Origin: Bradyrhizobium sp. sBnM-33
GTDB lineage: Bacteria > Pseudomonadota > Alphaproteobacteria > Rhizobiales > Xanthobacteraceae
NCBI RefSeq assembly: GCF_032917945.1
Contig: NZ_CP136624.1
Span: forward strand, 5,022,001 to 5,086,000
Length of the DNA: 64,000 nt
Reading direction: 5' to 3'
The position numbers and the translations under genes were made by a program. The notes under the pieces are model-generated. The model did not search any database. It saw nothing but the letters and a program-made list of their open reading frames with translations, and had not been told where the DNA came from. Position 1 is the first letter of the stretch; each line of letters starts with the position of its first letter. Below, one piece after another: positions 4,373 through 7,142 of this stretch.

Positions 4373-4860
4373 GGCAGGCAAATCAGCTAGATGTTGTGTC
4401 CAGCCACTCGCGCAAAAATTCTCCGCTTTCACCGGGAAGCAAATCAGTCACATATACCGTGCGTCTCACCCAATTGAGGGGCGGCTCGCGATCGTCACGA
4501 ACGTGCGGTGAGATGCGATGGACGCGGAATGCGCAAGACGTAGGCGCAGGAAGCATACGGCGAAGTCGTGTGGTTCTGGCGCCGCGGTGCTGGCGTTAAG
4601 TCCAGGAGAAGCGAAGCTTCTCGGGGGCGACGGTGGCAAGAAAGCCGTTCACCGGGAAGAGCACGAAGTAAGCCGTAAAGCCATTGCGCAGGGAAGGCCG
4701 GGATGCTCCCGCTGTACCTGTATGCTCGTGTGCACTTTTGTTTGCGCAAATCGCACACGAGACCGCGGGTGCAGCAAGCACCCGGTCTTCCCTGCGCCCT
4801 CTGATTGGAGAGGGTGGGAAGTTGAGAGCAAACCTCGGGCGAGATGCGTCGCGAGAATGC
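4373..4860. repeat. dispersed ~490-bp repeat, copy A
   Basis: This stretch is closely similar to the reverse complement of 62897-63400; the best-conserved part is 4462-4860. It contains internal palindromes: around 4723-4762 (GTGTGC...GCACAC type) and the GGTGC/GCACC arms near 4766-4782. Frames through it are open but encode low-complexity Arg/Ser/Cys-rich peptides that differ between the copies by indels, so I do not call genes in it. Confidence 0.85.
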
Positions 4861-4875
4861 CACCTCATATTCAGT

Positions 4876-4973
4876 CGTCATCCCCGCGAAGGCGGGGATC
4901 CAGTATTCCAGAGACAGCAGTGATTGAACCGATAAGCCGCGGCGTACTGGATCCCGCCTTCGCGGGGATGACG
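4876..4973. repeat. REP-like palindrome, family 1
   Basis: CGTCATCCCCGCGAAGGCGG at 4876 pairs with its inverted copy ending at 4973, and inner GGATCCAGTA/TACTGGATCC arms extend the symmetry. Related copies lie at 50557-50659 and 62786-62881. Confidence 0.85.
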
Positions 4974-5007
4974 ATCTTGTGCTGCTTCGCTATCTCCACG
5001 TCATGTA

Positions 5008-5027
5008 TGGACGGCCCCCTCTCGGCA
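5008..5027 (+). repeat. IS subterminal inverted repeat (transposase 3' side)
   Basis: TGGACGGCCCCC followed, after three unmatched bases, by CGGCA. It is the inverted counterpart of 6328-6347 and lies 3 bp inside the proposed element end. Confidence 0.75.
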
Positions 5028-5205
5028 AGGGCTTTTTGGTGCTTCGGCAATGGATCGGGGAGCGGTCATGTATACGGCCTCGAGAAGCGGCCATTGACCG
5101 CGGGCCCTGATGGAGATCGCGGATCGAATTCCAATCATTGCGGCGCGCTGTGACGCGCGATGACGTGTCGGAGTGTTTCGATCCTGGTTTCCTGACCATT
5201 TGCCA
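5028..5205 (-). ncRNA. candidate bridge/seek RNA of the IS element
   Basis: Noncoding DNA between the transposase stop and the 3' inverted repeat, the place where IS1111-subgroup elements encode their guide RNA. It carries GTCATGTAT at 5065-5073, identical to the left insertion junction at 5000-5008. It also carries ATCATTGCG at 5134-5142, identical to the right junction at 6352-6360. Several GC-rich inverted segments could fold. Transcription and ends are not shown by sequence alone. Confidence 0.5.
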
Positions 5206-6276
5206 TCACACCTTAATTGCCCTTCCGATAGGGATGAGCGCGAGCGCGGCAGCAGCCGGCGCGCTCGCGCGGTCTCGGTAAACTTCTCCTTTGCTCAGCA
5301 TGGCCCAGAGGATGCGCGCGGCTTTAGCGGCGAACGCCACCATGGCGACCTTGTAAGGCCGCCGCGCCAAAAGATCGCGCAGCCACGGGTCGCTGACGCC
5401 GCGCCTCTTTTGCTGCCGCAGATGGGCGCTGGCTCCGCTGATCAGCAGCGCGCGCAACATACGATCTCCCTGTTTGGAGATACGCCCTGAGCGATGCTTG
5501 CCGCCAGTACCGTGGTCCTTGCCGGTGAGCCCGATCCAGGCGGCGAAGTCCCGACCGGATCGAAACACCTTCGCATCGGGCACTTTGGCCAACACCGTAC
5601 TGGCGATGATCGGGCCGACGCCTGGGACTTCCATCAGCCGGCGCGCGTCCCGATCGCATCTGGCAGCCTTCGCGATCTGCCGTTCAAGCACGCGTTCATC
5701 GGCATTGAGCGCCTGCCAGTGCTGCGCCAGCATCAACAGAGCACATCGCATCATCTCCGGAATCTCTTCGCTCGGCTCCTCAAGCTTGGCCATCAGCTCA
5801 CACAGCCCCTGATGTCCTTGCGCGGCCACGATCCCGAGCTCGCTCAGCGCTGCCCGCAAGGCGTTTGCCACCATCGTCCGCTGGCGAACCAGCAAGGCAC
5901 GTGTGCCATGAACCGCCAGCGTGGCCTGTTGCTCGACGCTCTTCACCGGAACAAAGCGCATCGTCGGCCGGCCCACTGCCTCGCAGACACCTTCCGCATC
6001 CCGGCCGTCGTTCTTGTTGCGCTTGACGTAGGGCTTCACATAGGCCGGCGGCATCAGTCGCACCTCATGGCCATAGCGCCTGATCACCCGGGCCCAATGA
6101 TGTGCGCTCCCGCAAGCCTCCATGCCAACCAGGCACGGTGGCAACCCCGCAAAGAACTTCTCTACGGCAGCCCGCCTGAGCTGCCGCCTCAGCACAACCC
6201 TTCCCGATGCATCAATCCCGTGAACCTGAAACACGTTCTTAGCCAGATCCAACCCAATCGTGCTAATCTTCGTCAT
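5206..6276 (-). CDS. IS110-family DEDD transposase
   Basis: A 356-residue recombinase. The N-terminal RuvC-like DEDD domain starts IGLDLAKNVFQVHGID (first Asp) and continues with GMEACGSAHHWAR (Glu) and KNKNDGRDAE (Asp pair). The C-terminal Transposase_20 domain carries the helix-hairpin-helix-like MEVPGVGPIIASTVLA and the conserved Ser region LRALLISGASAH. The ATG at 6276 begins at the family's usual N-terminus; upstream codons run through the inverted repeat and are not coding. The gene looks intact, so the element may be active. In this family the enzyme works with a structured guide RNA from the element's noncoding end. Confidence 0.92.
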   Translation of the reverse strand: MTKISTIGLDLAKNVFQVHGIDASGRVVLRRQLRRAAVEKFFAGLPPCLVGMEACGSAHHWARVIRRYGHEVRLMPPAYVKPYVKRNKNDGRDAEGVCEAVGRPTMRFVPVKSVEQQATLAVHGTRALLVRQRTMVANALRAALSELGIVAAQGHQGLCELMAKLEEPSEEIPEMMRCALLMLAQHWQALNADERVLERQIAKAARCDRDARRLMEVPGVGPIIASTVLAKVPDAKVFRSGRDFAAWIGLTGKDHGTGGKHRSGRISKQGDRMLRALLISGASAHLRQQKRRGVSDPWLRDLLARRPYKVAMVAFAAKAARILWAMLSKGEVYRDRASAPAAAALALIPIGRAIKV

Positions 6277-6327
6277 GGACGGTCCCCTTGTCTGGTTCGA
6301 CTCAGCATCGCCAGTCTGGCACATCGA

Positions 6328-6347
6328 TGCCGTTCGGGGGCCGTCCA
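6328..6347 (-). repeat. IS subterminal inverted repeat (transposase 5' side)
   Basis: Read on the minus strand it starts TGGACGGCCCCC and, after three bases, CGGCA, matching 5008-5027. It lies 5 bp inside the proposed end and 52 bp upstream of the transposase ATG. Confidence 0.75.
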
Positions 6348-6352
6348 CCCCA

Positions 6353-6458
6353 TCATTGCGAGCGCAGCGAAGCAATCCATCTATCCCCACGCGGCGCTAT
6401 GGATTGCTTCCGCCCTTCGCTAAAGCTGCGGCGGATAAGTCGCTTCGATCGCCATGAC
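6353..6458. repeat. REP-like palindrome, family 2, interrupted by the IS
   Basis: It continues the CATTGCGAGCGCAGCGAAGC arm and the later TGGATTGCTTCC arm of family 2. The first bases of the palindrome (CACGTCAT) are found on the far side of the IS at 4997-5004. Intact relatives lie at 32067, 34873, 40333 and 62683. Confidence 0.75.
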
Positions 6459-6506
6459 ACTCTCAAGCAAACCTCTCGCCACGCAATAACAACCAGAGGA
6501 AAACCC

Positions 6507-7142
6507 ATGCTCACCGTCCATCATCTCAACGACTCCCGCTCGCAGCGAATTTTGTGGCTGCTGGAGGAGGTCGGCACGCCCTATGAGCTGAAGCGTTATC
6601 AGCGCAACGCCGAGACGCGGTTGGCGCCGCCGGAGTTGAAACAGGTTCATCCGCTCGGCAAATCACCCGTCATCACGGACGGCGACATGACCATCGCCGA
6701 ATCCGGCGCCATCGTCGATTACATCATCCGCCGCTACGGCCAGGGAAAAGACAAACCCGCGATGATGCCGGCGCCGGGCAGTGCGGACTACGAAGCCTAC
6801 AACGAGTGGCTGCACTATTCCGAAGGCTCCGCGATGTTACCGCTGATGCTCAACCTCTATGTCGGCCGGCTGAAAGAGGCGGGCGCGCCGCTGCATCCGC
6901 GCATCGACAGCGAACTGGCGAACCACCTTGGCTATATCGACCGCGCGCTGAACGGGCGGGAGTTCTTCGTCGGGGCGTCGCTGACCGGTGCCGACATCCA
7001 GATGAGCTTTGTCGGCGAAATGGCAAAAGTGTTCGACAGGCTCGGGCCATATCGGAATCTGGCGGCCTGGCTGGAACGCATGCATGCCCGGCCGGCGTTC
7101 CAGCGCTCGGTCGCCAAGGGCGGGCCGTACCGGTTTGCGTGA
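6507..7142 (+). CDS. glutathione S-transferase family protein
   Basis: A 211-residue GST. The N-terminal thioredoxin-like domain (about 1-80) has HHLNDSRSQRILWLLEE, where a Ser near residue 10-12 is the likely thiolate-activating residue. It also has the cis-Pro loop GKSPVITDG and the glutathione-binding E-S motif in IAESGAIVDYI. The C-terminal all-helical domain holds LTGADIQMSF (N-capping region). ATG at 6507 follows AGAGGA. The gene is separated from the upstream IS by the family-2 palindrome and stands alone. Substrate unknown. Confidence 0.9.
   Translation: MLTVHHLNDSRSQRILWLLEEVGTPYELKRYQRNAETRLAPPELKQVHPLGKSPVITDGDMTIAESGAIVDYIIRRYGQGKDKPAMMPAPGSADYEAYNEWLHYSEGSAMLPLMLNLYVGRLKEAGAPLHPRIDSELANHLGYIDRALNGREFFVGASLTGADIQMSFVGEMAKVFDRLGPYRNLAAWLERMHARPAFQRSVAKGGPYRFA

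Follow-up and report, generated by a model that had tools for sequence, protein, structure and literature searches.

What selects the insertion site of an IS1111-group insertion sequence, and can the guiding information be found in the noncoding end of the element itself? This question is raised by a locus of Bradyrhizobium sp. sBnM-33 within the window, the stretch of 64,000 nucleotides analyzed here (contig NZ_CP136624.1, positions 5,022,001 to 5,086,000), in which an earlier sequence-only reading had noticed that two 9-mers downstream of a transposase gene repeat the two insertion junctions, and had proposed that they belong to a guide RNA. The host genome consists of a single contig of 9.18 Mb. 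Among named records, with own-genome records possibly omitted, the nearest match comes from Bradyrhizobium ivorense, at 88% identity along the segment that aligned. The locus very probably corresponds to a REP-directed IS1111-group element with a predicted bridge-type guide RNA of the two-loop type, which would pair with both target and donor DNA.

The element, its ends and its copies in the genome

The genome carries seven IS1111-group copies that share 98-100% identity, and their comparison places the element, without core dinucleotides, at 5004..6353 on the minus strand. The window copy measures 1350 bp, and the four copies without other deletions are 22 bp longer. The right subterminal inverted repeat, GGGGGCCGTCC, was located at 5009..5019 and the left one, GGACGGCCCCC, at 6336..6346 (both minus strand); at 11-12 bp, these repeats fall within the 7-17 bp given for the IS1111 group (PMC11208160). 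Outside the 11-bp repeat there are 7 bp (ATGGGGT) on the left and 5 bp (ATACA) on the right, the counting of core bases being a convention. The right extension in the IS1111 group is 3 bp, and insertion causes no target duplication. The left extension of the group is described as 7 bp (PMC11187229). A core dinucleotide TG, read on the minus strand, is present at the right junction (5002..5003) and at the left junction (6354..6355), and is found once in the empty target heads.

The gene at 5206..6276 (minus strand) encodes a DEDD transposase/recombinase with DEDD_Tnp_IS110 (PF01548) and Transposase_20 (PF02371) domains, and matches NCBIfam NF033542, "IS110 family RNA-guided transposase". Residues D10, E53, D90 and D93 are invariant in an alignment of six sequences and, by analogy, may be the counterparts of the catalytic residues named for IS621 (PMC11208158). 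In the S(t)G motif of the window element, the serine/threonine position is a T and the P is replaced by G. A solved relative by sequence is ISCro4 (PDB 9t56; E 3.4e-7, residues 183-344), a comparison made by protein in which only the C-terminal part aligns. The recombinase also matches weakly to NF052498 (TIGR-Tas endonuclease), with 29 bits vs a cut-off of 100; the two proteins may be distantly related.

The window copy lacks 22 bp that are present in the six other copies, at 5250..5251 on the minus strand (the position is ambiguous by a few bases due to repeats), and this deletion is unique to it among the seven. Two other copies, at 7.056 and 7.092 Mb, have in common an 8-bp deletion early in the transposase gene. 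The gene ends in PAAA-stop (TAG) 13 codons earlier in the four copies whose frame is otherwise intact, and encodes there a protein of 343 aa, which together with its DEDD and Transposase_20 domains agrees with the 330-350 aa of IS1111-group transposases. Because of the 22-bp deletion, the C-terminus of the window copy is extended by 13 aa (356 aa in total) and its stop is moved to 5206; the window copy itself may be active. From the transposase stop to the right subterminal repeat there are about 247 bp in the four copies and 186 bp in the window copy, in keeping with the longer noncoding stretch that IS1111-group elements have behind the transposase gene. The sequence-only reading had described a stop at 5206 followed by about 180 bp of noncoding DNA, which holds for the length in this copy, the stop itself being peculiar to it. 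Positions 5000-5205 are identical across the seven copies, except for one base in the window copy (L013) and one in the right repeat of L015.

The insertion point lies in the head of a CGTC-type REP

All seven copies have the left flank CTCGCAA-TG and the right flank TG-ACG, and share one insertion point. In the window, the left half of the broken target (CTCGCAA, a REP head) is found at 6356..6362, with the REP running on beyond 6362, and the right half (ACGTG) at 4997..5001, both on the minus strand. The uninterrupted 12-mer, CTCGCAATGACG, is present 302 times in the genome, vs 0 for the reversed control; many of the first 100 listed occurrences form inverted pairs separated by some 70-110 bp. 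Judging by its CGTC end, the AT that follows and the CCA tail, we take CTCGCAATGACG to be the head of a CGTC-class REP. The survey that describes this class reports CGTC-1 and CGTC-3 in Bradyrhizobium and, in its account of CGTC repeats, no association with transposase genes (PMC3733652). CGTC-type REPs would now be linked to a predicted RNA-guided element that inserts into their heads.

Four loci were examined for an empty site, and one of them, in genome G019 (L167), was informative: the matching intergenic region harbors a REP pair without interruption, in which each head has one core, the orthology of the exact site being approximate and an extra repeat pair being present there in the host genome. 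Insertion of all copies inside REP has also been described for ISPpu9, ISPpu10, ISPa11 and ISRm19, REP-targeting members of the IS110 family from other hosts and with other REPs (PMC1525189).

Taking into account that the target is a palindromic repeat, and that several IS families target REPs (PMC1525189), the site might be chosen through the hairpin that the REP forms or through contacts made by the protein, and the RNA might be purely structural. We consider this highly improbable. The sequence inward of the head varies among the seven copies (two kinds, by eye) while CTCGCAA-TG-ACG is constant, and the copies L010, L014 and L015 (7.06, 7.09 and 9.17 Mb) are in a different repeat that has only the CTCGCAATGACG head in common with the REPs of the other four (by eye). 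Moreover, elements with other targets obey the same guide rule, as described below.

Another CGTC-headed repeat (CGTCATCCCCGCGAAGGCGGGGATCCAG...) forms an inverted pair at 4878-4973 of the window, directly left of the element.

Three of four guide segments follow the targets and ends of related elements

The 9-mer GTCATGTAT at 5065-5073 recurs exactly at 5000-5008, and ATCATTGCG at 5134-5142 recurs exactly at 6352-6360, with no longer match in either case. The earlier judgment, by eye, that chance is an unlikely source of both was borne out by 20,000 dinucleotide-preserving shuffles of 5020-5205, in which the exact 9-mers appeared at rates of 0.0003 and 0.0038 and never together. In a looser test that accepted any 9-mer from the 19-nt neighborhoods of the junctions, on either strand, the rates were 0.0058 and 0.043, and 0.00025 for both (20,000 shuffles).

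Our analysis located four guide segments in the 3' noncoding region, in the order RTG-LTG-RDG-LDG, all on the minus strand. First, RTG (CACGUCA, 5161..5167) is complementary to the top strand TG-ACGTG of the element's own right flank in 7/7 copies. Second, LTG with its core (CGCAA-UG, 5136..5142) is recognized by match and covariation. Third, RDG (CUCCAU-CA, 5108..5115), the weakest guide, is complementary to the left-end TG-ATGGGG with one G:U pair. Finally, LDG with its core (AUACA-UG, 5067..5073) has an LD part that is matched in 35/35 of the elements compared below. The sequence-only reading had thus recovered LTG (5134-5142) and LDG (5065-5073) and had overlooked RTG and the weaker RDG. 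It had also left unnoticed that the target is a REP, that 22 bp are deleted, and that each of its 9-mers spans a guide, the core and about 2 nt of the other partner. On the RNA strand the 9-mers read CGCAA-UG-AU (LT-core-RD) and AUACA-UG-AC (LD-core-RT) and so spell out the two finished junctions; the match arises because LTG and LDG reach beyond the core by about 2 nt, into sequence of the other partner. The two predicted target-binding guides match both strands, as in a bridge RNA, and the top-strand match precedes (5') the bottom-strand match in the RNA, as in the IS1111 group.

To compare guides with targets and ends, relatives were drawn from the genus, from named genomes and from the host genome itself. 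This gave 129 loci (L009-L138 minus the duplicate L029), 115 of them with a transposase match reaching residue 320; 40 of the 115 had no recognizable ends or flanks, and from the 75 with ends L058, L060, L131 and L053 were removed as mis-assigned. The resulting 71 elements, seven of which are the host genome copies, were reduced to 35 non-redundant ones, including this element (L013). A second set started from 85 loci (9 without transposase match, 27 without ends and 18 redundant), of which 31 were kept; eight came from a search with the RNA model R1 described below (L186, L190, L192, L193, L197, L203, L204 and L211), and L246, which looks mis-assigned, was kept and excluded only from the test of nucleotides after LDG. 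Both sets go back to the same transposase query and are phylogenetically non-independent. The end-finder required RD+1 to RD+3 to be ATG, and elements without ATG were left out (e.g., L105, L117, L120, L121 and L132).

When each RNA was scored against its own target and against swapped ones (permutation, 35 elements), RTG matched 4.49/5 vs 3.05 (z 12.1) and LTG 4.54/6 vs 3.61 (z 7.6), the match being perfect over 5 nt in 20/35 for RTG and over 6 nt in 5/35 for LTG. LDG was perfect in 35/35 vs 29.8% of swaps (z 10.9; 7 distinct LD sequences). The best matches lie about 165 (RTG), 143 (LTG), 115 (RDG) and 70 nt (LDG) from the right end, and fall inside the expected interval in 31/35, 29/35, 29/35 and 35/35 elements, respectively. 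An alignment scan over 4,920 column/position combinations, which involved no match search, returned LT-5 to LT-1, LD-2 and LD-4 as its top seven, with LT-5 to LT-1 on the consecutive RNA columns 83-87, LD-2 on column 168 and LD-4 on column 166. RTG was smeared by gaps over columns 43-45 and 58-61, where RT+1 reached z 4.9 and 4.2 with columns 61 and 60; RD+4 and RD+5 gave z 4.7 and 3.5 with columns 118 and 117, on a scale where the out-of-register LT-8 reaches z 4.8 with column 15. No signal was detected for LT-6 (8/35). In the second set of 31 elements, at least 6/7 positions matched in 23 for RTG, 23 for LTG and 30 for LDG, vs 5.5%, 5.5% and 43% of swaps at the same threshold. Covariation with related copies, which had been proposed as a check of the guide RNA, is present for RTG, LTG and LDG in both sets, and natural retargeting is visible among the related elements.

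The assignment of RDG as right donor guide is poorly supported. Judged by perfect matches, its variable part followed RD in 2/35 elements vs 4.4% of swaps (L034 having a shorter, 6-base RD), and its core positions did not follow the core (21/35 and 25/35 vs 0.58 and 0.74 expected). RDG may still pair with the left end in this element, as its sequence suggests.

These comparisons also bear on the origin of the 9-mers. As the guide segments correspond to short stretches of REP and end sequence, they could be seen as duplicated DNA with no guiding function, left by an older end or by REP fragments inside the element. This explanation is already contradicted by the covariation and retains hardly any probability, given that elements with unrelated targets carry pieces of their own targets at the same RNA positions, and that the surrounding stems show compensatory changes.

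A predicted two-loop guide RNA

A search of 4700-6700 against Rfam 15 returned no family at gathering score, and we therefore built a model, R1, from the 35 elements. Five permissive Rfam matches in the same interval fell below gathering and were discarded, the best two corresponding to the neighboring repeat pair and to unrelated miRNA families. Based on R1, minimum free energy and pair covariation, the predicted guide (bridge/seek-type) RNA extends over 5052..5200 on the minus strand (109.1 bits, copy L013 being among the sequences used to build the model).

For the minus-strand RNA 5046-5188, the predicted folding energy is -55.6 kcal/mol (z -3.46), a value that 1/200 shuffles equaled or surpassed. 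Fold, consensus and covariation agree on a stem P1 (5' strand at 5177..5184 and 3' strand at 5121..5128, minus strand), which closes the target-binding loop, and on a hairpin P2 between RTG and LTG (5143..5159, minus strand, extent approximate). The consensus of 35 sequences shows a stem-closed loop with RTG and LTG on its two sides, separated by a hairpin, and after it another closed loop in which RDG and LDG flank a two-part hairpin. This structure has 24 pairs, with 95.8% of cells paired. Double changes were found in 16/24 pairs vs 10.0 in shuffles, which ignore relatedness; double-change cells numbered 89, vs 17.0 when shuffled and at most 19 when the structure was slid, a comparison that excludes one isolated predicted pair and in which the structure has an advantage over its slid versions, being derived from the tested sequences. 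A structured noncoding RNA in the element end, as expected of a bridge RNA, is thus indicated by prediction and covariation, and the folding check suggested with the original proposal came out in its favor. Taken together, the guide-RNA reading was supported in its essentials and incomplete in its parts: RTG, LTG and LDG track the targets and ends of relatives, and the scaffold carries compensatory changes.

The position of LDG is relevant to a further alternative, in which the RNA picks only the target, the protein reads the ends through the subterminal repeats, and LDG either matches incidentally or is left over from the right end. The seekRNA study, in which target matches and reprogramming were demonstrated and an 82-nt ISEc11 RNA was sufficient (PMC11187229), is compatible with this possibility, as is the poor support for RDG in the IS1111 set. 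We regard it as improbable, if less so than the other two alternatives, since in 35/35 elements LDG is identical to the final five bases of the same element, with covariation at LD-4 and LD-2 and 29.8% in swaps, and since some 70 nt separate it from the right end, its place being an internal loop of the conserved scaffold. Donor reading through LDG, in addition to target reading, is therefore supported in mainly alphaproteobacterial IS1111 elements.

We favor a bridge-type RNA that measures about 150 nt, contains two internal loops and is encoded by the 3' noncoding region; it would be transcribed and bound by the recombinase. Its target loop (RTG...LTG) would pair with both strands of the REP head CTCGCAA-TG-ACG, and its donor loop (RDG...LDG) with the joined ends of the element (ATACA-TG-ATGGGG), so that the recombinase would exchange strands at the common TG core. 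Strand exchange at a shared TG core would lead the element to enter the REP head at this point in one orientation. LTG and LDG would run about two nt past the core into the post-recombination sequence (LT-core-RD and LD-core-RT), where their likeliest role would be to stabilize the exchanged strands or to recognize the inserted element for excision.

Transcription could start from the circular form. Once the ends are joined in a circle, a -35-like TTGCCG (5023..5028, minus strand) lies 17 bp before a -10-like CATGAT, and among the 35 elements a TTG precedes the junction-spanning -10-like hexamer by 17 bp in 29, by 16 bp in 2 and by neither distance in 4. These motifs, which are consensus matches, point to a putative circle-junction promoter in line with the one described for ISEc11 (PMC11187229).

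This RNA is of an already known kind. Predicted IS1111 bridge RNAs with target and donor guides have been described (PMC11208160), and the seekRNA elements ISEc11, ISPa11 and ISKpn4, as presented in PMC11187229, have the same downstream noncoding region, subterminal repeats, DEDD transposase and order of top-strand before bottom-strand match, with ISPa11 also targeting a REP. In comparison with these, the target here is a CGTC-type REP head, and we see a guide for the left donor as well as an extension that would read the junction. The IS621 bridge RNA (PMC11208160; PMC11208158) likewise has two internal loops, target and donor guides and a common core dinucleotide, but in the accounts given there it is encoded upstream rather than downstream, its guide order, with the bottom-strand guide 5' of the top-strand one as in the IS110 group, is the reverse of the one observed here, and its core is CT, whereas the core here is usually TG. 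The element, from a soil bacterium, is a compact and well-delimited predicted RNA-guided recombinase whose target is defined and whose guides are located, and many of its relatives have been retargeted naturally.

R1 has 27 matches in the host genome (150 of 5,111 candidates scored), and 25 of these have a transposase match, in some cases a fragment, directly upstream on the same strand. Among 289 genomes of the class, host included, 45 have an R1 match at E <= 0.001 (stricter filters). The two exceptions in the host genome are L156 and L160. L156 (3,931,103-3,931,244) has no transposase, keeps LTG, RDG, LDG and the right end, and is fused to the beginning of an open frame resembling a signal peptide (by eye); it was considered as an orphan guide RNA and rejected, as it is truncated and looks like a remnant. 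L160 (5,450,474-5,450,621, minus strand; 42 bits) has no transposase match upstream and is near another IS1111-type element. For the matches L157-L165 (41 to 56 bits), the end search gave no result in eight cases, and for L165 it returned the neighboring element.

Nucleotides past the core suggest a possible mirrored handshake

The two nucleotides after the LDG core (AC; 5065..5066, minus strand) equal RT+1 and RT+2, and are a candidate handshake guide of the donor loop. Across the 35 elements, the first equals RT+1 in 27 (36% expected; 0/10,000 permutations) and the second equals RT+2 in 26 (60% expected, p 0.0008). In the second set the agreement was 20/30 for RT+1 (39% expected, p 0.0006) and 22/30 for RT+2 (60%, p 0.007); the first 12 further elements had given a weaker result (8/12, p 0.076, and 9/12, p 0.04) before the set was enlarged to 31. 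The third nucleotide showed no signal with RT+3 (7/35 and 9/30). Relatedness could be the source of part of this signal. Among 17 nearest-neighbor pairs, 13 differ at RT+1; the RNA changed in 8 of these, in 7 of them to match, was unchanged in the other 5, and never changed alone.

The two nucleotides after the LTG core (AU; 5134..5135, minus strand) equal RD+1 and RD+2, and are a possible handshake guide of the target loop. A is found in 30/35 and T in 24/35 elements (19/23 and 13/23 in the second set), a resemblance rather than covariation, because the end-finder required RD to begin with ATG. On the RTG side, T, which is the complement of LD-1 in all elements but L018, follows the core in 7/32 rows having a base there (L108 in poor register), giving no sign of a handshake. 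A handshake on the RDG side (14/35 vs 0.27 expected, p 0.05) is not claimed.

In IS621, "handshake guides" pair with the incoming strand after exchange and are located 3' of RTG and RDG (PMC11208158). The candidate nucleotides described here follow LTG and LDG instead, and it is about an even call that IS1111 elements have handshake nucleotides 3' of LTG and LDG, which would read the bottom strand of the recombined junctions in a mirror image of IS621. In both groups the handshake would then follow the 3'-side guide of each loop, and we infer that reversal of the guide order would move it to the other strand. Alternatively, the nucleotides after the core may have been selected for recognition of the inserted element at excision, by analogy with ISEc11, since circle formation in that element needs flanking target bases (PMC11187229).

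Among open-licence PubMed Central papers, we found no earlier report of a mirrored handshake in IS1111, and the covariation after LDG is an addition to what is known of bridge and seek RNAs. If the mirrored handshake is true, IS1111 and IS110 would be opposite in the strand that is exchanged first, or in the parts played by the two ends, and a single RNA would spell out both finished junctions. This is the part that merits the attention of specialists: a direct test of mirror-image strand exchange in IS1111 vs IS110 would bear on the programming of such systems.

Elements with unequal or non-TG cores

In 7 of the 71 elements (L059, L082, L084, L089, L119, L125 and L133), the dinucleotide of the left core is not that of the right core, for example with TG on the left and GG on the right, and the left core also differs from the right one in L203 and L272 of the second set. 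In L082, L084 and L089, LTG has one core and RTG the other, as though target and donor did not share the same core. Both ends of L101, L112, L122, L124, L129, L136, L192 and L243 have a core that is not TG (GA, GG, AG, TA or CG). LDG lacks the corresponding core in the GG-core elements L112, L124 and L136, and carries the same non-TG core in L101, L122, L129, L192 and L243.
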